Part shown: piece by piece, positions 2,905 through 60,926 of the stretch
Layout of the letters: each line of letters opens with the position of its first letter
Numbering within the stretch: position 1 is the first letter of the stretch
From: Rubritalea profundi
Lineage (GTDB): Bacteria > Verrucomicrobiota > Verrucomicrobiia > Verrucomicrobiales > Akkermansiaceae
Assembly (NCBI RefSeq): GCF_002954445.1
Contig: NZ_MQWA01000001.1
Coordinates: 2,444,248-2,508,247, forward strand
Direction of reading: 5' to 3'
DNA length: 64,000 nt
Made by a program: the position numbers and the translations under genes
Notes under the pieces: model-generated
The model's input: only the letters and a program-made list of their open reading frames with translations
What the model was told of the DNA's origin: nothing
Databases searched by the model: none

Positions 2905-2981
2905 CTGAATAAGGTGCCTTTATGTTAGTGGAAAATGGACACTTGAGCGATCGATTTCTTGCTAATGTATTGGCGTCAAAT

Positions 2982-4507: not shown

Positions 4508-4627
4508 CTTTTCTTGAGATATTTCAACTAATTTTCTGGTGGAGGGGGAGAACTCTAGTTCGAGCTCAAGGTCTGATCGTCGATTGATGCCCTATCCAAA
4601 CGCCAAAATTCATGATAACTCTAGAAT

Positions 4628-5509
4628 ATGTTGTTCAAGCGTCTCATCGCCTCCCTCTGTCTACTCGCTCAGCCAAGTTTAGTTTCTTGTGCTGCGGAGA
4701 CCGATTTACCCACCGCGATTGCATTGGGTTTGATGGGTAAAGACGGTGGTGATCGACTCTTTTATTTCCCGACAAAGGACGCACCATTCACCCCCGCTAA
4801 GCACGGCTACAACTACGAGGACGTAACATTCACGGCGAGCGATGGAGTCAAACTCCACGGCTGGTGGATACCGGCCAAGTCAGCCAAGACGGCCAAGGCC
4901 ACAGTCGTCTACTCTCACGGCAATGCTGGTTCCTTGCCGCACCACTTCGTATTCGTCTATTGGCTAGTGGATGCTGGCTACAACGTGATGATGTACGACT
5001 ACCGAGGCTATGGGAAGTCTGGCGGGGAAATCTCTAAAGAAGGTATTGTGGAGGATGCCAAGGCCGCTTTTATCTATACAACTGGGCGCAAGGAGGTGGA
5101 TGGAATTATATCCATGGGTCATAGTCTGGGGGGAGCGAAATCTATTGCAGCACTCGCCGAGTTGGCCCCGGAAAACCTCAAGGCTGTGGTGGTAGATTCA
5201 ACCTTCGCTTCCTATAAGGACATGGCTGAGCGGGTGGCTGGACCGCGAGCGAGAAAGGTGGTGAGCGATACCTTTGAACCCTATGTTTACGTAAAGAAAC
5301 TGCCGGAAGGTACGCCAATCCTCGTGGTGCATGGCTCAGACGATGAGACCATCCCATTCGCGCAGGCTGAGAGATTACTAGCGGCTGCAAATCCGCCAAA
5401 AAAATTGATGCGGGTGGTGGGCGGTAACCACGTGAATTGCTTTTTTGTCGATGACGGCAAATACCGCACTCAGCTGCTGCGCTGGATGGACCAGACTCTC
5501 GTTCCGTAA
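4628..5509 (+). CDS. Alpha/beta hydrolase lipoprotein (S33/BAAT-like)
   Basis: The protein (293 aa) begins with a signal peptide ending in the lipobox LVSC (Cys at about residue 21), which suggests a membrane-anchored lipoprotein. An alpha/beta hydrolase core follows: VVYSHGNAG, the nucleophile elbow GHSLGG, an acid-loop region VVHGSDDETIP, and a late His in GGNHVNC. The closest recognisable class is the serine aminopeptidase-like/BAAT C-terminal-like hydrolases (YsgR or FrsA type); the substrate cannot be told. It is transcribed alone, divergent from the S10 peptidase gene. Confidence 0.8.
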   Translation: MLFKRLIASLCLLAQPSLVSCAAETDLPTAIALGLMGKDGGDRLFYFPTKDAPFTPAKHGYNYEDVTFTASDGVKLHGWWIPAKSAKTAKATVVYSHGNAGSLPHHFVFVYWLVDAGYNVMMYDYRGYGKSGGEISKEGIVEDAKAAFIYTTGRKEVDGIISMGHSLGGAKSIAALAELAPENLKAVVVDSTFASYKDMAERVAGPRARKVVSDTFEPYVYVKKLPEGTPILVVHGSDDETIPFAQAERLLAAANPPKKLMRVVGGNHVNCFFVDDGKYRTQLLRWMDQTLVP

Positions 5510-5606
5510 GATTGAAGATTTATCTACTTTTCTGTAGACAGAACGAGGTGGTTGGGGTAAATCCCAGCCCGTCTAAGGAGCAATCTTCAGACGTAAATAA
5601 GTGAAT

Positions 5607-5681
5607 GGCAGGTTAGCTCAGTGGTAGAGCAGTGGAATCATAGTCCATTGGTCGAGAGTTCGAATCTCTCACCTGCTACCA
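5607..5681 (+). tRNA. tRNA with CAT anticodon (elongator Met, or Ile2)
   Basis: A complete 75-nt cloverleaf: acceptor GGCAGGT pairs with ACCTGCT, D arm AGCTCAGTGGTAGAGC, anticodon loop ATCATAG (CAT), T loop TTCGAAT and encoded CCA. The three G-C pairs of an initiator anticodon stem are missing, so it is not tRNA-fMet. CAT could be elongator Met or the lysidine-modified Ile2 tRNA; sequence alone does not settle it. Confidence 0.93.
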
Positions 5682-5692
5682 TTTATATAAAT

Positions 5693-5722
5693 GCCCGTAA
5701 CTGTAATGGTTACGGGCTTTTT
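5693..5722 (+). terminator. Rho-independent terminator after tRNA(CAT)
   Basis: A perfect 9-bp stem GCCCGTAAC/GTTACGGGC with a 7-nt loop is followed by five T residues, 12 nt after the tRNA. Confidence 0.88.
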
Positions 5723-5909
5723 CTTGTCTGGGTATTGAGGCGTTGGGTTCTGTTAAGCTGAATGCGACTATAACCCACCTTGATGGGTTGATGTTGGTGG
5801 AATATTCGACCCAGCATGAATGTGAAGCCATTTTTGAAAAGTGGGTGGTTTTGAATATTCCTGAATACGTACAGGGCAATGTATCAATTGGCCTATTGCT
5901 AGAAACAAG

Positions 5910-5941
5910 AAACGCTGCGAACCAATACGGTTGCAGCGTTT
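5910..5941 (-). terminator. Probable terminator of tRNA-Ser
   Basis: On the minus strand AAACGCTGC...GGT pairs with ACC...GCAGCGTTT with one unpaired base, and the 3' side is T-rich (TTTCTTG). It lies 9 nt beyond the 3' end of tRNA-Ser. Confidence 0.65.
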
Positions 5942-5949
5942 GCTTAAGA

Positions 5950-6039
5950 TGGCGGGCCGGGAGGGATTCGAACCCTCGGTGACATCACTGCCACACACGC
6001 TTTCCAGGCGAGCTCATTCGACCACTCTGACACCGACCC
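5950..6039 (-). tRNA. tRNA-Ser (GGA)
   Basis: A 90-nt class II tRNA with acceptor GGGTCGG paired with CCGGCCC, discriminator G and encoded CCA. It has the D-arm motif GAGTGGTCGAA, anticodon loop CTGGAAA (GGA), a long variable arm and a TTCGAAT T loop. Confidence 0.95.
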
Positions 6040-6168
6040 CGTTATCTTAAATATTACCTCTTTCGAGGTGGGCGGAAGCTAACGAGTGATCTAGTTGATG
6101 GCAATGCTTTTTTTGCAAAAATCTAGATTGGTTTTTGACGGCTGAGAAATGCGCTCCTATATGGGGGG

Positions 6169-7004
6169 ATGGCAGCAGGAGATGAGGTGATAGTATTGAT
6201 GGATAATGGCTCATTGCGAGCTGAGGCGACTATACAGTTGCGCGTTTTGGCGGAGGCTCTTAGTGCCAATTTGCAGATGCCTGTCCATCCAGTTTCGTTG
6301 TTGCATTCGAGTAAGCTGGATCCAGCGGATACGGATGGGGTGGTGGCTCAGACTTTGGTGCCATTTCTGCGTGCTCAGAGGGCTCTGGGGAAAGATGAAT
6401 TCACGATTATTCCTTTGTTTTTTGGACCGAGTGGGGCGCTGGTGGATTATCTGCCGCAGCGGGTGAGTGAGCTGAGGTTAGAGGGCTGGGGGGGCTGAAG
6501 GTGACTGTAGCGCCGACATTGGTGCGGCAGGCAGATACGCGCATAGCAGATATCATGGCATCGCTAGTGGCTGAGAAAATGGATACTCTGGGTTGGACGC
6601 AGGCGAGTGTGGCGATGTGCGACCACGGGACACCAGCGCGGGCAGTGAATGAGGTGCGGGAAGTTATTGCTAAACAGCTTCAGGAGTTGTTAGTTGAGAA
6701 ACAATGCAGTGTCACTGCGTGCTCTATGGAGCGCCGTGAGGGAGCTGAGTATGATTTTAACGATCCTTTGTTAGGGAGTCTTCTCGGGGCAGAGGGCTAT
6801 GAGGAGAAGGTGATCGTGTCGATGTTGTTCGCTGGGCCTGGTAGGCATGCTGGAGCGCAAGGCGATGTGGCCGAGATCTGTCAGGCGGCAAAGCTAAAGA
6901 CCCCTCAGTTAGAAGCTGAGATGACTGGGCTGGTCGGGAGTAAAGTGGAAGAGTTGGTGGCTATTCTTGCGGATCGTTATCGTGAGCTTCACGTAGTTTC
7001 TTAA
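6169..7004 (+). pseudogene. CbiX-like sirohydrochlorin chelatase, split by a frameshift at a G7 run
   Basis: Two adjacent frames make one CbiX-type protein. The first (6169-6498) starts VIVLMDNGSLRAEA and includes FTIIPLFFGPSGALVDYLP, then stops at TGA 6496. The second frame continues without a break as GGLKVTVAPTLV and on through VSMLFAGPGRHAGAQGDV to 7004. Adding one G to the seven-G run at 6488-6494 fuses them as EGWGGLKVTVAP. CbiX chelatases insert Co or Fe into sirohydrochlorin for cobalamin or siroheme; the tandem-domain size (about 278 aa) fits the longer members. The run could be a sequencing error, a lesion or a slippage site. The 3' end overlaps the convergent gene by 44 bp. Confidence 0.75.
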
Positions 7005-7527
7005 CATCTAGGAGCTCTGCCTGCTTTTTGAGGAAGGCTGGCCATTCTGAGTTCGGGATGTTGCTCACAGCCCGACCAACCATGATGACTTCCCTGCTTT
7101 CAGATACGCGGCCGTTATGGTCGAGTGGAATTTTATCCCATGCTATGGCCATTCCTCGGTCGTTCTCATTGAGGCCATTGACGAAGTGCCATGAGCTGCG
7201 CTCAGGTTTGAGGTAGCCATGGTTGGCGTAGAATTTCTCGGCGGCTTCTAGATCGCCAGCTTTGCCGACGATAAGATCTAGATTGTCTTGATCGACCCAT
7301 CCATTTCCGATAAGTTGTGTTAGAGCTAGCTTTGAGGGGTCATCAGAGTTCGGTAATTCGCCATCATGGCCCTCAGAGTAGCTGAGGAGAGCAAAGTATA
7401 GACCTTTTGAGCATCGGTGCGTGCGACCGTAGGGATACTGGCTTTTATAGTAGCCTCGGATACTGACAGTGGCGATAGTGACAATTGCCAGAGAGATGAG
7501 GATTACGTATTTCTTCTTCTTCGACAT
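6961..7527 (-). CDS. Membrane-anchored hypothetical protein
   Basis: The start at ATG 7527 gives 188 aa with a KKKK tract then one membrane segment (about residues 5-23), so the bulk would lie outside the cytoplasm. An upstream Met at 7584 would add 19 residues that overlap the tRNA-Gly terminator region. After the anchor comes LLSYSEGHDGELPNS, a pattern like that seen just after the pilin-type helix in many PVC-group secreted proteins. No enzyme motif is visible. It overlaps the CbiX gene tail to tail. Confidence 0.6.
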   Translation of the reverse strand: MSKKKKYVILISLAIVTIATVSIRGYYKSQYPYGRTHRCSKGLYFALLSYSEGHDGELPNSDDPSKLALTQLIGNGWVDQDNLDLIVGKAGDLEAAEKFYANHGYLKPERSSWHFVNGLNENDRGMAIAWDKIPLDHNGRVSESREVIMVGRAVSNIPNSEWPAFLKKQAELLDVKKLREAHDNDPQE

Positions 7528-7584
7528 GGACTGAAAACTAACAGAGGTGGAGTCAGTTTGTGAAGAGAGTTTTGTAACGGACAC

Positions 7585-45753: not shown

Positions 45754-46653
45754 TTAGACCTCGAGCGCTTCGGCTATGAGGGCCATGCGGATGGGTACGC
45801 CATTGAGGGCTTGCTCGAAGTAGCGTGCTTGGGGGAGGCTGTCGACAGCTTGCATGATCTCGTTGACCCGTGGCAGTGGGTGCATGAGGGTGGCATCTGG
45901 TTTCATCTTGTGGACCATTTCTGGGGTGAAGATGAAGGCATTTTTGACTTGGTTAAATTGCTCGATGTCTTCGAAGCGTTCTTTCTGCATTCGGGTGTCG
46001 TAGATGACATCGGCAGTCTGGAGGATTTCGTCGGTGAGCGTGGTGTGGATGCTGTCGCGACTGTTGACGTATTCGGACGGCATTTGGATGGCTTCTGGGG
46101 CGACGAATTGGAGGGAGACTCCCTCGTAGTTGCGCAGGATTTTAGCGAGAGAATGGACGGTTCGGCCGTATTTTAGGTCGCCGACGAAAGCTATATTGAG
46201 AGGCTCGTTGCCTATGTTGTGGTGTTTGACGATGGTGTAGAGGTCGAGAAGCGACTGGGTGGGATGTTCGCCGCTGCCGTCACCGCCGTTGAGGACTGGG
46301 ACAGGGGAGTAGTGTGCTGCGACTTTTGCTTCGCCTTTGACCTTGGTGCGGATAGCGATGACGTCTGAATAGCCGCCGACGATGCGGATGGTGTCTTCGA
46401 TAACTTCGCCTTTGGATTGGGAGGAAAAGGTGACATCGCTCTCTGAGATGACACTGCCGCCGAGTCGGAGCATGGCGGTCTCAAAGGAGAGACGGGTGCG
46501 GGTGGAGGGCTCGTAAAAGAGCGCGCCTAAGATTTTCCCATCACACATCTTGGTGCCGCCTTGCTTGAGGATGGCTTCCATTTCAGCGGAGCGCTGCATG
46601 ATGCGGTCGAGGTCCGCGCGGGAAAATTGGTCGGCAGTGAGGACGTGATGCAT
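45754..46653 (-). CDS. pyrB: Aspartate carbamoyltransferase catalytic subunit
   Basis: The 299-aa protein from ATG 46653 has the usual PyrB length and motifs: FYEPSTRTRLSFETAMLRLG, LNGGDGSGEHPTQSLLDLYTI, FVGDLKYGRTVHSLAK and MHPLPRVNEI. It makes carbamoyl-aspartate for pyrimidines. The frame continues 62 codons upstream, but that stretch has no homology and crosses the low-complexity motif at 46657-46692. No pyrI or other pyrimidine gene is adjacent. Confidence 0.95.
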   Translation of the reverse strand: MHHVLTADQFSRADLDRIMQRSAEMEAILKQGGTKMCDGKILGALFYEPSTRTRLSFETAMLRLGGSVISESDVTFSSQSKGEVIEDTIRIVGGYSDVIAIRTKVKGEAKVAAHYSPVPVLNGGDGSGEHPTQSLLDLYTIVKHHNIGNEPLNIAFVGDLKYGRTVHSLAKILRNYEGVSLQFVAPEAIQMPSEYVNSRDSIHTTLTDEILQTADVIYDTRMQKERFEDIEQFNQVKNAFIFTPEMVHKMKPDATLMHPLPRVNEIMQAVDSLPQARYFEQALNGVPIRMALIAEALEV

Positions 46654-46903
46654 ACGGAGGAAGTAAGAAGCAAGAAGTGAGGTGTGAGAAGTCTTTTCCC
46701 TTTTACAAGAAACTTTTGCGTGAGCGAGCCGAGCGGAAGTCATTGTTTGAAAGACGAAAGAGAGTTGCTTGCTCCCTCTTTCGTAGTGGACAAGTGATCG
46801 AGTTTGATCTTCCTTGCAGAGGTTCATACGGAAATGCATGAACGGTGCATTTATTGTAAGTTATTTGACGGAGCTACGTATTTTAACTCACACAATTGAA
46901 ACC

Positions 46904-48160
46904 ATGAGAATATTTAAAACACTAATTTTTGCAGGACTCTGCAGTCAGCTCACGCTCGCCGAAGAGGGCTTCATTGATCTTTTCAATGGCAAAGACCTCA
47001 CTGGCTGGACTGGTGAGGGGTATGCGGTAAAGGATGGGACCATCGTTTGCACGCCGAAGGGGAAGAACCTGATGACTAAAAAGGAGTACTCGAACTATGT
47101 GCTCGATTTTGAATTCAAATTGCCAGCTGGTGGCAACAATGGCCTGGGCGTTCATTACCCAGGTAAGGGGGATCCCGCCTATACTGGGCTCGAGCTGCAA
47201 ATTCTCGATGACACGCACCCAGAGTACGCCAAGCTCAAGGAATCACAATTCCATGGTGGCCTTTATAAGGTACAGGCAGCCAAGCATGGCCACCTCAAGC
47301 CAGTAGGCGAGTGGAATAAGCAGCGCGTGGTTGTCAATGGTAACCATGTGGCGATCGAACTCAATGGTGTTGTCATCAATGATGCGAACCTCGACGAGCT
47401 GGCTAAGAAATTTCCAAAGCACGTGGGCGTAAAGCGTCGCTCAGGCTTTATTGCATTCTGCGGCCATGGAGATCCAGTGGCATTTCGAAATATTAAGATC
47501 AAGGATACTAGTTTGGTGAAAGTAGATCTCACCGGTTTCAAAGCACTCTACGATGGCAAGAGCCTGGGTGGCTGGAAACAAGAGCCAGGGCACGAAGGTC
47601 ACTGGCAGCCACGCGGCGATGTGCTTTACTACGACAGTAAATCCACCGCCAAGGACAAGAATCTCTGGACTGAGAAGAGCTATAAGAATTTCACCATGGT
47701 GTTTGATTGGCGTTGGGCTGAGACATCTGCCAAGCGACTCGATCGTCCAGTGCTGGACCCCGCGACGGGCGAGACAAAGAAGGATGCCAATGGTAAGCCA
47801 ATATCAAAGAATGTGATCGAGCTTGATAGTGGGATCTACCTACGTGGCAACAATCGTTCACAAGTCAACCTCTGGAACTGGCCTTGTGGCTCAGGTGAGG
47901 TTTACGGATACCGCATGAATCGTAAATTTAGCCAAGAGATCCGAGCAGCACTCACACCTAAAGTCCCAGCAGACAATCCGATTGGCGCATGGAACCGTAT
48001 GGCGATCACGCTCAATGGAGACCGTTTGACTGTGATGCTCAATGGCAAGACAGTGATTGAGAACGCTCAACTCCCTGACGTTCCATCTGAAGGACCAATC
48101 GCTCTGCAGCACCACGGAAGTGCTCTTGAGTTCCGTAACCTATCCATCAAAGAACTTTAA
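46904..48160 (+). CDS. Two-domain DUF1080 protein (3-keto-disaccharide hydrolase-like)
   Basis: The 418-aa protein has a signal peptide ending near SQLTLAEE and two DUF1080 (concanavalin-like) domains. The first (about residues 22-200) has FIDLFNGKDLTGWTGEGYAV and GGNNGLGVHYPG. The second (205-415) has FKALYDGKSLGGWKQ and ends with LEFRNLSIKEL. DUF1080 proteins include hydrolases that cleave 3-keto-glycosides made by Gfo/Idh-type oxidases. It starts the six-gene operon and is followed by a Gfo/Idh oxidoreductase after 11 bp. The start at ATG 46904 gives the signal peptide; the frame upstream overlaps the pyrB leader. Confidence 0.88.
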   Translation: MRIFKTLIFAGLCSQLTLAEEGFIDLFNGKDLTGWTGEGYAVKDGTIVCTPKGKNLMTKKEYSNYVLDFEFKLPAGGNNGLGVHYPGKGDPAYTGLELQILDDTHPEYAKLKESQFHGGLYKVQAAKHGHLKPVGEWNKQRVVVNGNHVAIELNGVVINDANLDELAKKFPKHVGVKRRSGFIAFCGHGDPVAFRNIKIKDTSLVKVDLTGFKALYDGKSLGGWKQEPGHEGHWQPRGDVLYYDSKSTAKDKNLWTEKSYKNFTMVFDWRWAETSAKRLDRPVLDPATGETKKDANGKPISKNVIELDSGIYLRGNNRSQVNLWNWPCGSGEVYGYRMNRKFSQEIRAALTPKVPADNPIGAWNRMAITLNGDRLTVMLNGKTVIENAQLPDVPSEGPIALQHHGSALEFRNLSIKEL

Positions 48161-48171
48161 AAACACCTATT

Positions 48172-49497
48172 ATGTCAGATCAACAACCATCAAACGAAGA
48201 GTCTAAGTCTACGCGACGTGATTTCGTAAAAAAAGCATCAATCGGCACTGCCGCACTGGGGCTTAGCCCGTTAGTATTCCCATCGCTTAGCGCCGCTGAC
48301 GGAGCTGGAAAGAAAAAGCTTAAAGTAGGAGTCGTCGGCCTAGGTGGCCGAGGAGCTGGAGCAGTGAGAGATATCTTGACCGCTGATCCAGATACTATCC
48401 TCTGGGCTGTTGGTGATATCTTTGATGATCGCATGAAAAAAGTGAGCGGTATCGAGAAGAAATTCTCTGGTCGTGTCGATACAGGCGGTGGCAAGCGTCA
48501 CTTTGTCGGTTTTGATGCCTATCAAAAAGTGATCGATAGTGGAGTTGATATTATTTTGCTGACGACTACGCCAGTTTTCCGTCCGTTGCACTTTAAGGCT
48601 GCAGTGGATGCAGGAAAGCATGTCTTTATTGAGAAGCCATTCGCGCTAGATATTCCAGGACTTAAAAGCGTCATGGATAGCGCTAAGAAGGCTCAGAGCA
48701 ATGGACAGTCAGTTCTCACAGGTCTAGTTTGGCGCTATAGCTCTGCCCTTATGGAGATGCACAAGCGCATTCAAGGTGGTGAGATTGGCGACGTGCTCTC
48801 CACCTCTTCGTCCTACTGTGGTGGCGGAAGACCAAATAAAATGCCTGATATCAAGTTCAAGCCCGCGAGCATGTCTGATATGGAATGGTCGCTTAGGTAT
48901 TGGCAAAACTTTGTCGAATTAGGTGGTGACGGAACCTTGGAGTACATGATTCACGGAATTGACCGGATGTCTTGGGCTATGGGAGATACTCTTCCAGCCA
49001 GGTGTTTTGCTAATGGAGGAAACATCATACCAGTAGAAGCCGCGAACGCCTGGGATCAGTTTACCCTTCGCTACGAATATGCAGATGGACGCGTGGCAGA
49101 CTTCTTCGGTCGTCAGATTCCTGGCACCTACGCAGCTAGCGGTGATGTAATCACAGGTAGTAAAGGTCATGCTATTGCAAAAGGGCAGAATGTCTCTCTA
49201 GTTCGTGATGGTAAGACCATCTGGAAAAGCTCAGGTGGACTTGGCTACGTGAATGAGCACAAGATCTTTACTGAGCACATTCGCAAGGGGAAGGTTTATA
49301 ACGACGTGATCGATAAGTTCGATATTACACACGCCATCTGTATAATGGGACGCACAGCCGGCTACACAGGAGCGTTGCTCACTGATAAGCAAATTATGAG
49401 TTCCAAAGATGTGTTTGTTGAGTCTAAAGGGCTCAACTTTGACACTCCATTTACAGCGCGCAAATCACCAATCCCTGGTAAAACAAAATTTATTTAA
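48172..49497 (+). CDS. Tat-exported Gfo/Idh/MocA-family oxidoreductase
   Basis: The 441-aa protein has a Tat signal, STRRDFVKKASIGTAALG. It then has the Rossmann-type start KLKVGVVGLGGRGAGAV and the conserved HVFIEKPFALDIPG. Such exported members keep a tightly bound nicotinamide cofactor and can oxidise sugars or keto-sugars in the periplasm. With the DUF1080 gene before it and a second, cytoplasmic Gfo/Idh gene in the same operon, a role in a 3-keto-sugar pathway is likely. The substrate is unknown. Confidence 0.9.
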   Translation: MSDQQPSNEESKSTRRDFVKKASIGTAALGLSPLVFPSLSAADGAGKKKLKVGVVGLGGRGAGAVRDILTADPDTILWAVGDIFDDRMKKVSGIEKKFSGRVDTGGGKRHFVGFDAYQKVIDSGVDIILLTTTPVFRPLHFKAAVDAGKHVFIEKPFALDIPGLKSVMDSAKKAQSNGQSVLTGLVWRYSSALMEMHKRIQGGEIGDVLSTSSSYCGGGRPNKMPDIKFKPASMSDMEWSLRYWQNFVELGGDGTLEYMIHGIDRMSWAMGDTLPARCFANGGNIIPVEAANAWDQFTLRYEYADGRVADFFGRQIPGTYAASGDVITGSKGHAIAKGQNVSLVRDGKTIWKSSGGLGYVNEHKIFTEHIRKGKVYNDVIDKFDITHAICIMGRTAGYTGALLTDKQIMSSKDVFVESKGLNFDTPFTARKSPIPGKTKFI

Positions 49498-49501
49498 GTG
49501 A

Positions 49502-50635
49502 ATGATTAAGTTAGAAATTAACTCTAGCAGGGCAATTTTAGCGATCTCAGCACTAGCCGCACTTTGTGTTGGTGCTGAGACTGTGGACGCAGCTCAACCC
49601 GTTGCTGATATCAAACCAGCTCTCGCTAAAGGTGATTTCGACGAGGAGCAAATGCGCCTAGCTCAAGTCATTCACAAGCGCGTCACTGACTATCAGCAAA
49701 TAAAGAATAAGGTCAACAATAGTACGGAAAAGCCCTTTATCGCGTATAAAAAGACGCTTAATTCGGGAGCGCAGTTTGAGATGTTACCGGTCAAAGCTGG
49801 TAGTTTCACTTGGAAAGGTGAGAAGGAGGGTGACACTCTAGAAGTGGATCTCTCTGCCTTCTGGATGGGCAAAGCCGAAGTTACATGGGAAGAGTATGAT
49901 CCCTTTATGTACTCCGTGCTACCACGGACGAAAGACGGCCAATTGCCTGATTTTATGCGAGAGCAAATCAAAGGTGATCTCGACTTCCTGGCTCGTCCCA
50001 CAACTCCCTACCACCCCATGACATTTGGCATGGCTCGTGATGGTCATCCCGCAATAGGCATGACTCAGCATGCAGCTAACAAATATTGTCAATGGATCAG
50101 CTTCCAAACTGGCCACTTCTACCGACTTCCTACTGAAGCCGAGTGGGAATATGCCTGCCGTGCTGGCAGTAAAACTAAATACAGCTGGGGAGACGATCCT
50201 GCAGATGCGAGTAAATATGCATGGCTCGCAGGTGAAGCTGGCTCACATTATCAAAAGCCCGCTCAGAAAAAACCCAATGCTTGGGGGTTTTATGACATGC
50301 ATGGCAATGTGCTAGAGTGGACTCTTGATCAATACGTTCCGAATAGGCAGGCCCATTTTGGTAAGAAGAAGGTAGTCAATCCATGGGTGAAAGCAACCAA
50401 GCCATACCCACATGTCGCGAAGGGTGGGTTTTGGAAGCTGCCGCTCAATGACGTGCAAGCGTCAGCGCGCCTGCAATCAGATCCAATCTGGAAAAAAGAT
50501 GACCCACAAGGCCCTAAAAGCCAATGGTATCATACTCGTGAACCCTATCCAGGAATACGTATCGTTCGCCCACGTAAAATACCGACTGCAGAAGAAATGT
50601 ATCACTACTGGAATTCTGGTGTAGCAGAGGACTAA
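49502..50635 (+). CDS. FGE-sulfatase-like (SUMF1 fold) protein, likely non-catalytic
   Basis: The 377-aa protein has a signal peptide (about residues 1-30) and a formylglycine-generating-enzyme-type fold. Motifs include FWMGKAEVTWEEYDPFM, AANKYCQWISFQTG, RLPTEAEWEYACRAG and WGFYDMHGNVLEWTLDQY. The Cys pair that bacterial FGEs need in the C-terminal part is not seen: the region from AKGGFWKLP to GIRIVRPR has none. It may bind glycans or proteins rather than make formylglycine. It follows the Gfo/Idh gene with a 4-bp gap. Confidence 0.85.
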   Translation: MIKLEINSSRAILAISALAALCVGAETVDAAQPVADIKPALAKGDFDEEQMRLAQVIHKRVTDYQQIKNKVNNSTEKPFIAYKKTLNSGAQFEMLPVKAGSFTWKGEKEGDTLEVDLSAFWMGKAEVTWEEYDPFMYSVLPRTKDGQLPDFMREQIKGDLDFLARPTTPYHPMTFGMARDGHPAIGMTQHAANKYCQWISFQTGHFYRLPTEAEWEYACRAGSKTKYSWGDDPADASKYAWLAGEAGSHYQKPAQKKPNAWGFYDMHGNVLEWTLDQYVPNRQAHFGKKKVVNPWVKATKPYPHVAKGGFWKLPLNDVQASARLQSDPIWKKDDPQGPKSQWYHTREPYPGIRIVRPRKIPTAEEMYHYWNSGVAED

Positions 50636-50700
50636 TTACAAAACGCAGGTCAGAGGGTGATGATTTGGCTGCAATGTAGCTATCGCCAAGTTAGAAATAC

Positions 50701-51696
50701 ATGAGAAGAATCACACCTATCCCCCTCTTTCTCTGTCTATCAGTTCTCAGCTGTAGTCCAAGGGAGGAGGAATCATCAAGTCCGCCTCCTAGATCAGAGC
50801 TGAAAAGGTGCAGTTATTCAGCCCCTCATTTAGGCACCATGGTGCGTCTCGTTTTCTATTCTGAGGAGAAAGAGCATGCTGATACATTAGCTAAGAGTTG
50901 TTTTCAACGAGTCAAAGATTTAGACACCATACTTTCTGACTATCGTGCAGATAGCGAAGTCAGCGAACTGTGCGCAAAACCTATAGGGAAAGCGCACAAG
51001 GTAAGTGATGCACTTTTCTCAGTGATTGCTCAAGCTCAGGCCATTTCGGCAAAATCTAACGGAGCATTTGATGTCACCCTCGGTAAGCACACCCAGGCAT
51101 GGAGAGAGCTAACCATGCTGGAAAATCCCTCGGTGGGAGCTCCGAGCTATCGAGATCTCATTCTCGACCACGATAAGAAAGCCATCACTCTGCAAAAGTC
51201 GCTAAAAATTGACCTAGGAGGCATCGGTAAAGGATACATAGGAGATCAACTTATGGATATTCTTAAAGGAGCTGGAATCACCCATGCCGCAATCATTGTC
51301 GGTGGTGAGACAGTCCTCGCTGCAGCTCCTCCAGAAAAAAAAGGTTGGCACATTGGCATTGAAGATCCAGAACATAAGGTCATCGGTAAAATAGTGTTAG
51401 CGAACACGGCTCTATCCACCTCTGGTGATAGTTATCAATTTTTCGAAGCCGACGGCAAACGCCAATCTCACCTCATTGACCCCGCTACTAAGCAAAGTAA
51501 AATCAATCGCCTCAACGTGACGACCATAGCCCCCACCGCGATGGAGTCTGATGCCTGGGCCACAGCCCTACGAATCTTGCCCACAGAAGAAGCCGTCAGA
51601 ATTGCCAACAAAGAGCCCCAGCTAGAGGTTCTATTTATTCCCTATCAGCAAAACACTAGCAGCACCAAAAACTTTCCAACACTACAGCTACCATGA
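50701..51696 (+). CDS. apbE: ApbE family FAD:protein FMN transferase (lipoprotein)
   Basis: The 331-aa protein has a lipoprotein signal with SVLSC. It then has an ApbE core: LGTMVRLVFYSEE, ILSDYRADSEVSELC, KSNGAFDVTLGKHTQAW, KIDLGGIGKGYIGDQLMD, and the catalytic-site region LIDPATKQ, as H-L-I-D-P. ApbE attaches FMN to Thr or Ser in target proteins outside the cytoplasm. No FMN-bind domain or Nqr/Rnf subunit lies nearby, so its target in this operon is open. It overlaps the MFS gene by 4 bp. Confidence 0.9.
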   Translation: MRRITPIPLFLCLSVLSCSPREEESSSPPPRSELKRCSYSAPHLGTMVRLVFYSEEKEHADTLAKSCFQRVKDLDTILSDYRADSEVSELCAKPIGKAHKVSDALFSVIAQAQAISAKSNGAFDVTLGKHTQAWRELTMLENPSVGAPSYRDLILDHDKKAITLQKSLKIDLGGIGKGYIGDQLMDILKGAGITHAAIIVGGETVLAAAPPEKKGWHIGIEDPEHKVIGKIVLANTALSTSGDSYQFFEADGKRQSHLIDPATKQSKINRLNVTTIAPTAMESDAWATALRILPTEEAVRIANKEPQLEVLFIPYQQNTSSTKNFPTLQLP

Positions 51697-53105
51697 GCAG
51701 CACAGAAAACAAAAATAACTACAGTAAACTCTCAATCATGATGTTCCTGCAATTCTTTGCATGGGGATCATGGTTCGCAACTCTCAAACCAGCTCTAAAT
51801 GCGCATGATCTAGGAAGCATTATTGGTGGCGCTTATGGGAGTGCTCCACTCGCTGCTATTTTTGCTCCGCTTTTCTTAGGTCTAGTAGCGGATCGATTTT
51901 TCCCATCTGAAAAAGTAATGGGCGTTCTTCTAGTGATTGGAGGAGTAATAATGAGTTATATTGCAATTATTGCTCCAGAAGGAGCTTCCCAAGGTCCCTT
52001 GATTGTAAATTTGATGATTGCTTACATGTTCTGCTACATGCCGACTCTGGGCTTGGGTAATACGATCACCTTCACCCACCTCCCTCAGGAACTGTTCCCT
52101 AAGGCTAGAGTCTGGGGGACGATAGGCTGGATTGTTGCTGGTCTAGTTATTGGCTTTGTCGGGTGGTCAATCTCGTTGAATATTTTCTGGTTGGCAGCAG
52201 CATCAACGTTGCTTCTAGGGCTATTTAGTTTCACTTTGCCTCACACTCCCGCTCCAGCCAAGGGGCAGGCGGTAAATATTCGATCATTGTTAATGTTTGA
52301 TGCGTTCAAGCTGCTCAAAGATAAATCGTTCGCGGTCTTTGCAATCTGTTCGACTCTTATTTGTATTCCGCTGGCTTACTATTACGGACAGACTGCTGAT
52401 TTCTTAACTGCAGCAGGCTATAAAGAATCTGGATCGACCATGACAATTGGTCAGATGTCCGAAATCATATTCATGTTATTGATTCCGTTTTTCTTCCGGA
52501 AGCTTGGAGTAAAAAAGATGCTACTCATTGGTATGGGGTGTTGGGTGGCGCGGTACGCTCTGTTTGCTGCTGGAGCATCAAATCAAATTGCTTGGATGTT
52601 GTTATTGGGTGTGGCTCTGCACGGTATTTGTTACGACTTCTTCTTCGTTACAGGATTTATTTACACTGACAAGAAGGCCCCTAAAGAAGTGCGAGGTCAG
52701 GCTCAGAGTTTGATCGTATTTCTCACGCAGGGAATAGGAATGTTTATTGGTTATGCATTTGCTTTTGGTGGAGGGAATTGGCCATTCACAAAAATCTCTC
52801 TCCCGGCCCTTCCTAACACTTTCGTCCAAAATGGAGAAACATATGGAACTCCGCCATCAGCTGAACTCGTTACGAGTATCGCTAAGATTAAAGAAGGTGA
52901 GCCAAGTAAAAATACGCTAGAGCAATTGGCTGACATGTTTGGTAAAGGTTACTCCGATTTAGTAGACACTGACCTCATTAGTTCAAATATGGCTGACTGG
53001 AGCAACTACTGGATTTTCCCAGCTATCATGGCCGCTGTCATTTTTGTCATCTTTGGACTCACATTTTGGGACAAAGTGAAAACTGACGACGAACCTCAAG
53101 ACTAA
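51693..53105 (+). CDS. MFS transporter of the nucleoside:H+ symporter type
   Basis: The 470-aa protein has 12 predicted membrane segments and NupG-type features: MFLQFFAWGSWFATL near the start, GSAPLAAIFAPLFLGLVADR, an internal ARVWGTIGWIVAG and YDFFFVTGFIYTDKKAP late. Members in Bacteroidetes and Verrucomicrobia often travel with Gfo/Idh and DUF1080 genes and probably take up sugars or glycosides. A 70-residue loop with EGEPSKNTLEQLADMFGKG precedes the last membrane segment. The ATGA overlap shows translational coupling to apbE. Confidence 0.88.
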   Translation: MSSTENKNNYSKLSIMMFLQFFAWGSWFATLKPALNAHDLGSIIGGAYGSAPLAAIFAPLFLGLVADRFFPSEKVMGVLLVIGGVIMSYIAIIAPEGASQGPLIVNLMIAYMFCYMPTLGLGNTITFTHLPQELFPKARVWGTIGWIVAGLVIGFVGWSISLNIFWLAAASTLLLGLFSFTLPHTPAPAKGQAVNIRSLLMFDAFKLLKDKSFAVFAICSTLICIPLAYYYGQTADFLTAAGYKESGSTMTIGQMSEIIFMLLIPFFFRKLGVKKMLLIGMGCWVARYALFAAGASNQIAWMLLLGVALHGICYDFFFVTGFIYTDKKAPKEVRGQAQSLIVFLTQGIGMFIGYAFAFGGGNWPFTKISLPALPNTFVQNGETYGTPPSAELVTSIAKIKEGEPSKNTLEQLADMFGKGYSDLVDTDLISSNMADWSNYWIFPAIMAAVIFVIFGLTFWDKVKTDDEPQD

Positions 53106-53131
53106 TTTTAAAATACACACACTAAACAATT

Positions 53132-54202
53132 ATGATCAAAATTCTATGCGCAGGTGCAGGCAATATGGGACGTTCCCATGCCTTGGCGTACCACAATATT
53201 CCTGAGTTCGAGATCGTCGGTATCTGCACACGTTCTGCTGGATCTCGCGAGAAGCTCAATGAAGAACTTGGTGGAGGTTACGCGCTCTACGATGATTTCT
53301 ACAAGGCACTCAAAGAGACCAAGCCGGATGCTGTTTCCATCTCAACTTACCCAGACACTCATGCACTATTTGCTAAAGCTGCCTTTGAAGCTGGCTGTGA
53401 TGTGTTCATCGAGAAGCCGCTAGCTGAGACTGTGGAAGAAGCGCAGGAAATTGTCGATTCAGCGAAGGCCAATGGCCGCAAGTTGGTGATTGGTTACATC
53501 CTACGGCATCATCCATCGTGGCAAAAATTCATCGAGATGTCGCACGACCTCGGCAAGCCGCTAGTGATGCGGATGAACCTCAACCAGCAATCTTTCGGAG
53601 ACAACTGGGAGACGCATAAGAATCTCATGTCCTCTATCAGCCCGATCGTTGACTGTGGTGTCCACTACGTCGATGTCATGTGCCAGATGACTCGTTCCAA
53701 GCCGGTGCGCGTTGCTGGACTAGGTGCGCGTCTTTCCGATGAAATACCTGAAGGTAAAATCAACTACGGTCACCTACAGGTGACTTTCGAAGACGGATCA
53801 GTTGGTTGGTATGAAGCAGGCTGGGGTCCAATGATGTCTGAGACGGCTTTCTTCGTGAAAGATGTCGTAGGGCCTAAGGGCTGCGTGACTATCGAAGCGA
53901 AAGAGGCTGCCGGTGAAGGCGCTTCTTCCGATGTCGATGCGCATACCAAGACAAATACTCTGCGCCGCCACTTCGCTGAGCTCGATGCTAACAACCAATT
54001 TGTCAAGAAAGACGTCTGGGAGGAAACCGGCGACGAACCGGATCACGATGAGCTTTGCCAGCGCGAGCAGTTGTTCCTGCTTGATGCTATTCAAAACGAT
54101 GTGGATCTAACCGACCACATGGATGATGCTATCAACTCCATGAAGATCGTGGAAGCTGCAGACAAATCCTTTCGCACAGGAGAGATCGTGCACCTCGACT
54201 AG
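53132..54202 (+). CDS. Gfo/Idh/MocA-family oxidoreductase (cytoplasmic)
   Basis: The 356-aa protein starts KILCAGAGNMGRSHALAY and has a conserved CDVFIEKPLAET, then the C-terminal dehydrogenase domain with QSFGDNWETHKN and PIVDCGVHYVDVMCQM. There is no signal peptide, unlike the Tat-exported Gfo/Idh protein earlier in the operon. It may reverse or complete the keto-sugar oxidation inside the cell. It is last in the operon and is followed by a strong terminator. Confidence 0.88.
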   Translation: MIKILCAGAGNMGRSHALAYHNIPEFEIVGICTRSAGSREKLNEELGGGYALYDDFYKALKETKPDAVSISTYPDTHALFAKAAFEAGCDVFIEKPLAETVEEAQEIVDSAKANGRKLVIGYILRHHPSWQKFIEMSHDLGKPLVMRMNLNQQSFGDNWETHKNLMSSISPIVDCGVHYVDVMCQMTRSKPVRVAGLGARLSDEIPEGKINYGHLQVTFEDGSVGWYEAGWGPMMSETAFFVKDVVGPKGCVTIEAKEAAGEGASSDVDAHTKTNTLRRHFAELDANNQFVKKDVWEETGDEPDHDELCQREQLFLLDAIQNDVDLTDHMDDAINSMKIVEAADKSFRTGEIVHLD

Positions 54203-54223
54203 TATTCAGGCATTTCCACTTTC

Positions 54224-54262
54224 ATGGCCTCATCCGATCATCGGATGAGGCCATTGCTTTTT
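54224..54262 (+). terminator. Terminator of the keto-sugar operon
   Basis: A perfect 15-bp inverted repeat ATGGCCTCATCCGAT/ATCGGATGAGGCCAT with a single C between, followed by TGCTTTTT, 21 nt past the last stop. Confidence 0.92.
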
Positions 54263-56700: not shown

Positions 56701-57441
56701 ATGGCCAACATTTTCCCACGATACTCCAACCTCATACCAATCCAAATAGCGATTTGTATAGGATCACTAGCATTTGGTATTGCTATAGCATTTACATACT
56801 ACGGTACGCCAAAGAGTACGCGTGTCGGGTACATGCCCGACCAGCCGATTCCTTATAATCATGAGTTGCACGTGAAACAGCTCGGTCTTGATTGCCGTCT
56901 GTGTCATTCGTTCGTAGAGGAATCTGGCCACGCTAACGTTCCTACGGCTGATCGCTGTTGGACTTGTCACCAGCACGTGAAGACTGATAGTGAAGAGCTT
57001 GTTCCTCTCCGCCGTGCGATTGACAAGACATATGAAGGTTACACCGGCGATCCAGTGAAATGGGTCCGCGTCCACAAGTCACCTGATTATGTTTACTTCA
57101 ATCACTCTGCGCACCTTAGTCGCGGAATCTCTTGTGTGAGTTGCCACGGTCAAGTCAACGAGATGCCTGAAGTTTACCACGCGAAGAGCCTTTCCATGGG
57201 GTTCTGTCTTGATTGCCACCGAGCGCCTGAGAAGCACCTCCGCCCGCTCGAGGAAGTATTTAATCTCGATTACACCGCTAAGAACTACGTTGAGGCTAAT
57301 CCAGAGTTCCAGAAGGCTGTATTCGGTGAGTTATACTCACCCGCAGATTCTGAAGAAAAAGTTCAACATGTAGTTGGCACATTCCTCAAGAATCACTGGG
57401 ACATTCAGCCGAAAGAAAGCTGCGCCACTTGTCATCGTTAA
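56701..57441 (+). CDS. actA: ActA: pentaheme cytochrome c subunit of Alternative Complex III
   Basis: The 246-aa protein has an N-terminal membrane anchor (about residues 12-33) and five CxxCH heme sites: CRLCH, CWTCH, CVSCH, CLDCH and CATCH (the last at the C-terminus). Alternative Complex III oxidises quinol and reduces a cytochrome c or an oxidase directly. ActA is the pentaheme electron-exit subunit. It begins the act operon, with about 250 bp upstream. No Shine-Dalgarno sequence precedes the ATG. Confidence 0.95.
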   Translation: MANIFPRYSNLIPIQIAICIGSLAFGIAIAFTYYGTPKSTRVGYMPDQPIPYNHELHVKQLGLDCRLCHSFVEESGHANVPTADRCWTCHQHVKTDSEELVPLRRAIDKTYEGYTGDPVKWVRVHKSPDYVYFNHSAHLSRGISCVSCHGQVNEMPEVYHAKSLSMGFCLDCHRAPEKHLRPLEEVFNLDYTAKNYVEANPEFQKAVFGELYSPADSEEKVQHVVGTFLKNHWDIQPKESCATCHR

Positions 57442-57476
57442 TCCACTTTATCTAACTACCAACCTTTCTGCTGAAA

Positions 57477-60400
57477 ATGAGCAAACGTAAATGGCAACAT
57501 CCTGAAGCACCTGCCGGTGAAAACGTCACAAAAGCATGGCGTAGTGCAGGTCAACTCGAAGACACTACTGGCCTACGCCAGTGGGTAGAACGTGAATTCC
57601 CGCGTGCTGCTGAGACAATGATCGACGAAAATGACCGCGAGTCGTCCCGCCGTGATTTCCTAAAAGTCATGGGCGCTTCTACAGCGCTAGCAGGCTTTGG
57701 TCTCGCGTCATGTCGTCGCCCTGAAACATTGATAGTCCCTTACGTGAATGCTCCTGAGTGGGTGATTCCCGGTAAGCCACTTTACTATGCATCTTCCATG
57801 CCACAAGCCGGCGGCGCAATTCCAGCAGTAGTGACAAACCACCAAGGACGCCCGACCAAGCTCGAGCCTAACCGCATTCACCCTGAGAATGATGGTCACG
57901 GCGCGTTCATGCAGGCATCTGTTCTCAATCTTTACAATCCGGCTCGCTCACGTGACTTCCTGAACAAAGGAAATAAAGTGTCTCGCGCAGCCGCTGAAAA
58001 GCAACTCACCGAGTTCACCAAATCCGGTAAGATCGGTTTTGTGTTTGGTGAAGATGATTCAGCAACAAGGACTCGGCTTCGTGTTGAGCTCGCCGAGAAA
58101 TTCTCTGGCGCTAAGTTTTACAGCTACGAAGCTCTCGCTGGTGCGGGCCGCAAAGAATCTAACGAGGCAATTTACGGACCTGGTGTGGATGTCATTGCAG
58201 ACTTCTCTGACGCTAAGTGCATACTTTCAGTCGACTCGGACTTCCTCGAGCTCGACAAACAAGGCCCGGTAAAAGGTTTCTACGATCGCCGCCATGTGAA
58301 CGGTCGCGATTACGACAAAACTGCTTTAGAGACTAAAGATAGCCTCAACCGTCTCTACATCGCTGAGCCTAACTTCAGTCTCACTGGTGGAATGGCTGAC
58401 CACCGCGCTCCTGTGGCTCCTTCTCAAATTGGTCGATTCCTCGCAGCGCTCGCTGTTGAGTTCGGTGTTTCTGTCACCATTCCTGGTGGCGTATTTGAGG
58501 GGAAAAAAGCGCAATGGATCAAAGCATGTGCGGTAGATCTCATGAAGCACCGTGGCGAAGCAGTCGTGCTTCTCGGATCTCGTTACGGCAAAGATCTTCA
58601 CGATCTCGCGCACCTGATCAATACTAAGCTCGGTTCGTTCGGTAAAACGCTCAAGCCTGTGCAGACTAACAAGGCTGGCCTTGGAAGTGTGAAGCAACTC
58701 ATCTCAGATGTTAAGCAGCTCGACACAGTCATTCTCCTCACACCAGCAAACCCAGTGCACGAGAGCGCTGCGCTCGCTAAGGCCTTCGCTAAGGTGAAAG
58801 TGGTGCAGCTAGGCGAGACTCTGAATGCTACAGCAAACACAGCTGACCTACACATTCCTGCGGCGAACTACCTCGAAAGCTGGGGTGACTCATACACATC
58901 TTATGGTGTTTACACCATCGTTCAGCCAATGATCCTTCCGCTTTACGGTGGAGTTTCTGAGTTCGAGCTACTTACTGGTCTTCTTGACGGTGAGCTCCAT
59001 AATTCTATGCTGGATGTAAAAGCAGTTTCACCAGCATACTCAGCAGTGCGTAAAACATTTGATGCCGTGAGTAACGGATCCAATGCTAAAGCAAAGCAAG
59101 CGGCATGGATGAAACTTCTTCGTGAAGGATTCTTCAAGTCCGAGTACGCAGTAGCGAACAAAGGCATTGCTGCTGTGAGTGCTCCGTCACTTACCGCCCA
59201 GCCTGTTCCGTCTGTAGATGCTCTCGACATCGTTTACTCGACTGACGGTTCCGTTCTAGACGGTCGTTACATCGACAACGCATGGCTGCAAGAAGCTCCA
59301 GACCCGATCACCAAGGTTTGTTGGGATAACGCGATCTACGTAGCACCTCAAACTGCTAAAGACCTCGGCATCTACGATGAACTCGTAGAGCTCGAGAAAG
59401 CTGGTGCTGCTTGGTGGTCTGGTATTGGTATAGCTACAGAAACGAAGATCAAAAAGACCGATGTCCCTGAAGAAGGAGAAGGACCAAGTCTCTATGCTCC
59501 AGTGGCTAAAATTTCTGTAAACGGCAAGACTCTCGAAGGCCCAGTGATCGTTTCTTTCGGAATGGCAGAGAACGTGATATCTATCTCCCTCGGTTATGGC
59601 CAAGGCTACGATGAGAACTTCGCGACTGAGTTCAAAGGAAGCGGCGTAGCATACAGCCAAGACTGCAAGAGCAACGTTTCTTGTGTCGGCATGAATACCG
59701 GTTTCAATGCTTACCCTCTCCGTGCTGAAGACGACTACTACGCTACAGGCGCAACCATCGCTCGTGCTGAAAATGGCACGACCTACAAGATGGCTCGTAC
59801 GCAGGAGCACCACTCGATGTACGGACGCGCGATTGCTCGTGAGATCTCCACAGCGACCGACGAGAAGACGCATAAAGACTACGCATCACAGATAGCGAAT
59901 GTTCAGAAGCAGGGAATGGATTCCCACGCTCCAATGAACATGAGCCTCTACAAGCAAGAAGCCAATGGTGGCCCACTGACAGGTGGTAAAGAAACCGCTA
60001 CTCCGCACCTTTCTGATAAATCCCAGCAATGGGCAATGACCATCGACCTCAACGTCTGTAATGGTTGTAATGCATGTCTCGTGGCATGTCAGGCTGAGAA
60101 CAACATCCCAGTGGTGGGCAAAACTCAGGTGGCAATGGGCCGTGAAATGCACTGGATCCGGATGGATCGCTACTTTGCAGCACCGGATAAATACATTGAT
60201 GCTGACGAGTGGGAGAAATCTCCAGAGATGATCCCGCAGCCAGTGGCATGTGTGCAGTGTGAATCTGCTCCTTGTGAAACAGTTTGCCCGGTGAATGCTA
60301 CAGTCCACACAGAAGACGGTCTCAATGCTATGGCGTACAACCGCTGTATCGGAACCCGTTACTGCGCGAACAACTGCCCATACAAGGCACGTCGCTTCAA

Positions 60401-60926
60401 CTTCTTCGACTACAACAAGCGTAACCCACTTCTCGACAAGAACCTCTACAAAGGTCCTCTCGGTGAGAAGCAAGAAGGCGACTCCAAGCACCTCCAGCGC
60501 AACCCGAACGTTTCAGTTCGTATGCGTGGTGTGATGGAAAAGTGCACCTACTGTGTGCAGCGTCTCCAGTCCGCTAAGATCGATGCTAAGAAGCTCGCTA
60601 AGGAAAAAGCACTCGCAACTGCTGGTGGTTCTACTATGTCAAAAATCACTGCTGAGCAACTCATGCCAAAGACTGACGGCGTCCGCGTCGCATGTCAGGA
60701 CGCATGCCAAGCAGGTGCAGTTGTCTTCGGTAATCTTCTCGATTCTAAGTCAATGATCAGCCGCATTAAGAACAAGAACAACGAGATCATCAATGATCGC
60801 GCATACGACCTTCTTAACTATATCGGCACCCGACCACGGACTAGTTACCTAGCACGTGTGAAGAATCCTAATATCAGCATGCCGGGCGCCAAATACGTCG
60901 GTAAGGCAACTATCAACATGCACTAG
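57477..60926 (+). CDS. actB: ActB: fused molybdopterin-like and iron-sulfur subunit of Alternative Complex III
   Basis: The 1149-aa protein has a Tat signal, SRRDFLKVMGAST, ending in a lipobox-like LASC, so it is probably a Tat lipoprotein. Residues to about 850 form the large molybdopterin-oxidoreductase-like domain, which in known ACIII binds no Mo cofactor. The C-terminal part has four cluster motifs: CNGCNACLVACQAENN, CVQCESAPCETVCPVN, CIGTRYCANNCPYKARRF and CTYCVQRLQ with CQDACQAGA. It is the longest gene here and follows actA by 35 bp. Confidence 0.95.
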   Translation: MSKRKWQHPEAPAGENVTKAWRSAGQLEDTTGLRQWVEREFPRAAETMIDENDRESSRRDFLKVMGASTALAGFGLASCRRPETLIVPYVNAPEWVIPGKPLYYASSMPQAGGAIPAVVTNHQGRPTKLEPNRIHPENDGHGAFMQASVLNLYNPARSRDFLNKGNKVSRAAAEKQLTEFTKSGKIGFVFGEDDSATRTRLRVELAEKFSGAKFYSYEALAGAGRKESNEAIYGPGVDVIADFSDAKCILSVDSDFLELDKQGPVKGFYDRRHVNGRDYDKTALETKDSLNRLYIAEPNFSLTGGMADHRAPVAPSQIGRFLAALAVEFGVSVTIPGGVFEGKKAQWIKACAVDLMKHRGEAVVLLGSRYGKDLHDLAHLINTKLGSFGKTLKPVQTNKAGLGSVKQLISDVKQLDTVILLTPANPVHESAALAKAFAKVKVVQLGETLNATANTADLHIPAANYLESWGDSYTSYGVYTIVQPMILPLYGGVSEFELLTGLLDGELHNSMLDVKAVSPAYSAVRKTFDAVSNGSNAKAKQAAWMKLLREGFFKSEYAVANKGIAAVSAPSLTAQPVPSVDALDIVYSTDGSVLDGRYIDNAWLQEAPDPITKVCWDNAIYVAPQTAKDLGIYDELVELEKAGAAWWSGIGIATETKIKKTDVPEEGEGPSLYAPVAKISVNGKTLEGPVIVSFGMAENVISISLGYGQGYDENFATEFKGSGVAYSQDCKSNVSCVGMNTGFNAYPLRAEDDYYATGATIARAENGTTYKMARTQEHHSMYGRAIAREISTATDEKTHKDYASQIANVQKQGMDSHAPMNMSLYKQEANGGPLTGGKETATPHLSDKSQQWAMTIDLNVCNGCNACLVACQAENNIPVVGKTQVAMGREMHWIRMDRYFAAPDKYIDADEWEKSPEMIPQPVACVQCESAPCETVCPVNATVHTEDGLNAMAYNRCIGTRYCANNCPYKARRFNFFDYNKRNPLLDKNLYKGPLGEKQEGDSKHLQRNPNVSVRMRGVMEKCTYCVQRLQSAKIDAKKLAKEKALATAGGSTMSKITAEQLMPKTDGVRVACQDACQAGAVVFGNLLDSKSMISRIKNKNNEIINDRAYDLLNYIGTRPRTSYLARVKNPNISMPGAKYVGKATINMH

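Follow-up and report, generated by a model that had tools for sequence, protein, structure and literature searches.

Why does a bacterial operon with the marks of sugar oxidation encode ApbE, a flavin transferase, together with a protein of the SUMF1 fold? The question is raised by six genes of Rubritalea profundi that lie in a 64,000-nt stretch of its 4.17-Mb genome (the window; contig C1:2444248-2508247). They encode, in order, a protein with two DUF1080 domains, a Gfo/Idh dehydrogenase exported by the twin-arginine translocation (Tat) pathway, a SUMF1-like protein, ApbE, a transporter of the major facilitator superfamily (MFS) and a cytoplasmic Gfo/Idh protein. A preliminary description of this DNA had read them as a 3-keto-glycoside pathway, to which ApbE and the SUMF1-like protein were unexpected additions. 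That observation is right and its interpretation half right, with the emphasis to be inverted: Tat Gfo/Idh, SUMF1-like protein and ApbE form the conserved core, and DUF1080, MFS and cytoplasmic Gfo are the variable accessories.

Conservation of the core within the family

Orthologues of the window ApbE form a sharp group with 46-69% identity, other ApbE proteins of the family (Akkermansiaceae) reaching at most 39%, except for one 50% fragment, the remaining half of a gene that is split. All orthologue contigs of sufficient length keep Tat-Gfo, SUMF1 (in some cases two copies) and ApbE in this order. The preliminary description had named ApbE standing apart in relatives as evidence against its reading; the opposite was seen, ApbE accompanying the Tat Gfo/Idh and SUMF1-like genes throughout the orthologue group. 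The conservation of gene order that it had proposed to examine holds for these three genes and usually fails for the accessories, which are mostly missing beside orthologous cores. A SUMF1-like gene lies within 4 kb of ApbE in 16 of 17 orthologues, the exception being a gene split between two contigs, and in 45 of 86 family ApbE matches, against about 0.2 expected by random placement. Distances of the three core proteins are correlated (Mantel r 0.80-0.92), with a contribution from shared species history.

Neighbours of the core vary. DUF1080 stands between Gfo and SUMF1 in two genomes (G081 and G097), and in four contigs a Tat-exported xylose-isomerase-like TIM barrel is found upstream of Gfo instead (Pfam-checked for one). 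A paralogous set has the same triad (ApbE about 33%, SUMF1 about 42% and Gfo about 35% identity), often joined by an MFS of the same kind, a relative of which stands beside many such triads. Locus L075 reads Gfo-SUMF1-SUMF1-ApbE-MFS-Gfo, its last gene being 90% identical to the window cytoplasmic Gfo. L085 (positions 2664-7582; G066:C164) holds an orthologue of the two-domain DUF1080 protein (74%), a different, paralogous ApbE, an MFS and a cytoplasmic Gfo (88%), without Gfo-SUMF1. Since L085 has the accessories without Gfo-SUMF1, and the orthologous core of G066 sits elsewhere, the window operon has the appearance of an L085-type set combined with an orthologous core. In one genus (L060:4708-5007, L061 and L066), SUMF1 and ApbE are separated by a peroxiredoxin (AhpC/TSA) gene of the opposite strand, and an ArsP-type permease follows ApbE in L065.

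The core in other phyla

A cross-phylum survey of named genomes covered the 80 ApbE loci that matched best. A SUMF1-like open reading frame (ORF) was present in the flank of 28 of these, 16 of which also had Gfo. The SUMF1-linked loci belong to Verrucomicrobiota, Planctomycetota (L092, L095, L116, L131), Armatimonadota (L097, L118) and Bacteroidota (L108, L121, L139, L150), and no gene other than SUMF1-like and Gfo was found to recur beside ApbE across phyla in the flanks of the survey loci. The trio is probably one module, because it is kept together in several phyla, even in genomes without a known ApbE target. Tat-Gfo, PvdO-like protein and ApbE probably constitute an undescribed electron-transfer module for sugar oxidation outside the cytoplasm.

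The SUMF1-like protein resembles PvdO

The third gene had been called FGE-like, after the formylglycine-generating enzyme (FGE). The SUMF1 fold (PF03781) stands; the cysteine pair of the FGE active site, which follows a conserved GG, is missing from the window protein and from 103 of 103 relatives, and identity as a formylglycine-generating enzyme was rejected. The nearest solved structure to the family profile is PvdO (5hha, E=3e-29), although the PvdO equivalog NF051459 scores 72.8 bits against a cut-off of 500. PvdO is periplasmic and required for the last oxidation of pyoverdine; the purified protein is inactive and without cofactor, and an electron transport system may be required (PMC6206403).

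One or two haem c domains (CxxCH; Pfam PSCyt1 E=1.8e-29) are fused to the SUMF1 protein next to ApbE in many Verrucomicrobiota, and a haem-fused paralogue with two planctomycete cytochrome c domains occurs in the R. profundi genome itself (L078, C1:1445548-1447332). These fusions therefore place SUMF1-like proteins in an electron path, and the window protein may do the same job as its haem-fused relatives. A fusion of 819 aa in G097 (L054:3976-6432, - strand) joins two DUF1080 domains (PF06439 E=2.6e-82) to a SUMF1-like domain (PF03781 E=7.4e-34), tying the core to keto-glycoside chemistry. The AlphaFold model of the window protein was poor (predicted local distance difference test score, pLDDT, 52) and was not used. 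Its N-terminal ADIKPAL resembles the start of the relatives' cytochrome domain and lacks CxxCH; we draw no conclusion from this.

ApbE and the search for its acceptor

In an alignment of 18 relatives, ApbE residues H257, D284, K177 and D182 are invariant and T288 nearly so. The protein thus has the Mg- and flavin adenine dinucleotide (FAD)-site residues of the family, namely the His of HxxDP, the Asp and Thr of the Mg site and the KG motif. Y81, also invariant in relatives, aligns with Y60 of the Escherichia coli enzyme (residue 60, chain 4xgw), a tyrosine of the FAD-binding class (PMC4767422). With this near-complete conservation of the transferase residues and a tyrosine of the Y60 class, the window ApbE looks catalytically competent.

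ApbE had also been called an orphan, which holds only locally. Five ApbE genes occur in the genome, and a second one, at C1:1444649, likewise stands with Gfo/Idh and SUMF1-like genes (L078:7176-11333; C1:1443175-1447332). Two of the five adjoin FMN_bind proteins, and the genuine FMN_bind proteins of this genome carry the relaxed motifs VSGAS and IVGAT; GA[ST] was therefore checked in addition to the canonical acceptor motif. A search for the flavinylation motif in all ORFs of 49 loci, followed by the relaxed motif in a wider locus set, revealed nothing linked to the core.

Elsewhere in the genome, a frame of 1172 aa (L079:6229-9747, - strand; C1:1417228-1420746) is an unusual fusion of an exported FAD-oxidoreductase-like part, two FMN_bind domains and a NapH-like membrane part, with its own ApbE adjacent. 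In L080:5227-8362 (C1:2650226-2653361) an ApbE gene adjoins a Tat FAD-dependent oxidoreductase, and a weak DUF2271 match (17.4 bits, below the cut-off) lies just upstream of that ApbE (C1:2651933-2652184).

As two other ApbE genes sit by FMN_bind, the genome itself cannot settle the acceptor question, and genomes with a single ApbE were therefore examined. Five have exactly one ApbE, linked to SUMF1: an orthologue of the window ApbE in G087 and a member of the paralogous triad in G082 (one contig, 5.3 Mb), G025, G061 and G044. None of the five holds FMN_bind (even at E up to 5), DUF2271, DUF3570 or NqrB/RnfD, at genome completeness of 83-97% and with the proviso that acceptor types beyond these four families may exist. 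Less prevalent ApbE substrates are unidentified in about 4% of the flavinylation genomes surveyed previously (PMC8238504). A literature search, with most subscription papers and preprints outside its reach, found no paper combining ApbE and SUMF1.

The exported dehydrogenase and the accessories

In the Tat Gfo, the RR motif, EKP and E257..H261..D264 are invariant among 17 aligned relatives, so that the Rossmann domain, EKP lysine and catalytic His of Gfo/Idh/MocA proteins are all present. Its predicted model (pLDDT 82) matches dehydrogenases of sugars dependent on nicotinamide adenine dinucleotide (NAD), with Z of about 30-33, among them the levoglucosan, glucuronide-3-, inositol and DgpA-type enzymes (Z 30-33), which suggests that it oxidises a sugar. 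Chemistry of the type of glucose-fructose oxidoreductase (GFOR) and of the glycosidase type are indistinguishable by fold. GFOR is Tat-exported with bound NADP, and glucose-fructose and aldose-aldose oxidoreductases recycle their cofactor using a second sugar. These enzymes share the Gfo/Idh fold and differ in sequence, with about 14-17% identity to the window Gfo.

Both Gfo proteins fall far below the family cut-offs of the BT2157-2159 system: the Tat protein scores 30.9 bits against 750 for NF058561 (BT_2158 glycoside 3-dehydrogenase), and the cytoplasmic one, copies of which are 88-90% identical in L085 and L075, scores 39.8 bits against 650 for NF058563 (BT_2159 disaccharide 3-dehydrogenase). 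The DUF1080 protein matches PF06439 in two domains (265.8 bits, cut-off 26.8), from which a 3-keto-disaccharide hydrolase activity is predicted. The transporter matches PF03825 (303 bits, cut-off 25.9) and scores 304 bits against a cut-off of 446 for the nucleoside permease model TIGR00889.

Operon layout

The tight layout of six + strand genes, the families assigned to them and the 4-bp overlap of apbE with the MFS gene all agreed with our ORF, Pfam and spacing analysis (46904-54202; Table 1). Intergenic spacings are 11, 4, 65, -4 and 26 nt in gene order. Export signals can be read in four of the six products. The upstream boundary is a divergent pyrB-like ORF (45754-46839, - strand). Downstream, the perfect 15-bp terminator described earlier is indeed an inverted repeat (arms 54224-54238 and 54240-54254), effectively 14 pairs with a 3-nt loop; it folds far better than shuffled sequences (z -4.28; 0 of 200 equally good) and is the best terminator-like site of the region. 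From this layout, co-transcription of the six genes is likely. No riboswitch was found with Rfam. Outside the operon, the window has at 56701-60926 what looks like the beginning of an operon for alternative complex III, with a multihaem cytochrome and a large iron-sulfur/molybdopterin-like Tat ORF.

Table 1 Features of the six-gene operon, in window coordinates
Feature	Position	Strand	Evidence	Export	Place in operon
DUF1080x2 protein	46904-48160	+	PF06439 E=3.2e-79, two stretches	Sec signal; predicted secreted	variable accessory
Tat Gfo/Idh dehydrogenase	48172-49497	+	PF01408/PF22725; TIGR01409 above cut-off	Tat signal	core gene 1
SUMF1-fold PvdO-like protein	49502-50635	+	PF03781 E=4.7e-35	Sec signal	core gene 2
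ApbE flavin transferase	50701-51696	+	PF02424 E=6.1e-62	predicted lipoprotein, LSC lipobox	core gene 3
MFS, nucleoside-H+-symporter type	51693-53105	+	PF03825 E=4.5e-90		frequent accessory
Cytoplasmic Gfo/Idh dehydrogenase/reductase	53132-54202	+	PF01408 E=2.7e-25	no signal peptide	accessory
Intrinsic terminator	54224-54262	+	15-nt perfect inverted repeat, then T-rich tail		

Proposed mechanism and alternatives

We propose that the operon is a periplasmic sugar-oxidation module, in which a conserved three-gene core is joined by variable keto-sugar accessories, and we consider this reading evenly poised between right and wrong. Judging from its family, the Tat Gfo/Idh, folded with NAD(P) before export, would oxidise a ring hydroxyl in the periplasm, most likely the C3 hydroxyl of a glycoside or polyol. 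A membrane-side relay, needed because reduced nicotinamide cannot be exchanged in the periplasm, would reoxidise the cofactor and pass electrons to the respiratory chain; it would comprise the PvdO-like protein, which bears one or two c-type haems in related operons, together with a flavin that the lipoprotein ApbE puts in place. The DUF1080 protein, as its family suggests, would cleave the 3-keto-glycoside, and the MFS may import the keto-sugar, which the cytoplasmic Gfo/Idh would reduce or process further. FMN (flavin mononucleotide) and cytochrome c domains are interchangeable in extracytosolic enzymes (eLife 2021, PMC8238504), and by analogy electrons may exit through an ApbE-attached flavin and SUMF1. 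The earlier suggestion that ApbE helps to take electrons from the exported Gfo/Idh finds support, as a role that we infer. Tentatively, and with doubts that outweigh our confidence, the PvdO/SUMF1-fold protein could represent a class of ApbE substrates not described before, or else an oxidase partner that depends on ApbE, in four phyla, serving as the flavin- or haem-linked acceptor for the Tat Gfo/Idh.

The weak point of this mechanism is the flavin acceptor; a non-canonical site in SUMF1 or Gfo could serve, as could a protein from elsewhere. Several findings weigh against the module. The acceptor motif D-x-x-[ST]-G-A-[ST] is absent from every operon protein and aligned relative, GA[ST] is not conserved in Gfo or SUMF1, and no Ser/Thr distinguishes ApbE-adjacent SUMF1 proteins from others. 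The window SUMF1-like protein itself has no haem site, and some structural neighbours of Gfo are oxidoreductive glycosidases, which work without a net electron acceptor. Akkermansia-like genomes (genus g3) have related SUMF1 and Gfo genes separated from each other, and any ApbE they contain is mostly of another type. The motif results bear equally on the unlikely possibility that ApbE flavinylates the SUMF1-like protein, or the Tat Gfo/Idh, at a non-canonical site; a PvdO-type fold without cofactor would thereby become a covalent flavoprotein and take electrons directly from the dehydrogenase. Both proteins lack the canonical motif and a conserved GA[ST], and Ser/Thr conservation is equal in SUMF1 proteins without adjacent ApbE; yet SUMF1 is the sole protein besides Gfo to follow ApbE across phyla, the five single-ApbE genomes lack all four acceptor families tested, and cofactor-free purified PvdO is inactive.

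The glycosidase-like neighbours point to another account, which we judge improbable: the Tat Gfo/Idh would be an oxidoreductive glycosidase of the GH109 or sulfoquinovosidase type, or else a GFOR-type enzyme, that recycles its own nicotinamide, and ApbE would flavinylate an unlinked, general periplasmic redox protein. Structural matches to the NAD-dependent glycosidases 8qc2/8qc5 (Z ~32) and to GFOR 1h6d/1ofg (Z ~30) favour it, but it leaves unexplained the association of ApbE with Gfo and SUMF1 in several phyla and the retention of ApbE in genomes without any acceptor family tested. Very unlikely, in our estimate, is a plain BT2157-2159-type pathway in which the presence of ApbE and SUMF1 is incidental. 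The operon does have DUF1080, two Gfo/Idh genes and a sugar-type MFS, and BT2158 is a periplasmic glycoside 3-dehydrogenase (PMC11300592); however, most orthologous cores have ApbE and SUMF1 without DUF1080, MFS or cytoplasmic Gfo, and both Gfo proteins score below the BT2158/BT2159 cut-offs. What survives of the 3-keto-glycoside pathway first described is thus a periplasmic sugar-oxidation operon with such accessories, and not its assignment to the BT2157-2159 type.

Relation to known systems and significance

With Bacteroides BT2157-2159 and Caulobacter LacABC-DUF1080 (PMC9007349, PMC11300592), the window operon shares an exported sugar dehydrogenase, DUF1080 and periplasmic oxidation before cleavage. 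It differs in that its conserved partners are ApbE and the PvdO-like SUMF1, DUF1080 is optional and the Gfo proteins lie outside the BT2158/BT2159 families. Like known ApbE systems (Nqr/Rnf, FMN_bind, DUF2271, DUF3570; PMC8238504), it encodes an exported lipoprotein ApbE with transferase residues in an extracytoplasmic redox operon, but without a known acceptor domain or motif, and the tested families are absent from five core-keeping genomes. Pseudomonas PvdO, the dihydropyoverdine oxidation factor (5hha, PMC6206403), is likewise an exported SUMF1-fold protein linked to periplasmic oxidation; in contrast, no pyoverdine genes were seen in the window operon, where the partners are a sugar dehydrogenase and ApbE, and some relatives are fused to haem c.

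A gene set found across phyla thus keeps ApbE without any known substrate, with two proteins as candidate partners. If a SUMF1-fold protein is indeed an ApbE substrate or partner, part of the remaining 'orphan apbE' genomes would be explained, and PvdO-like oxidases would gain a cofactor logic. The finding would also show respiratory coupling of NAD-dependent sugar dehydrogenases outside the cytoplasm, and SUMF1-fold proteins that lack the FGE cysteines, and that are often mistaken for formylglycine-generating enzymes, would acquire a redox role.

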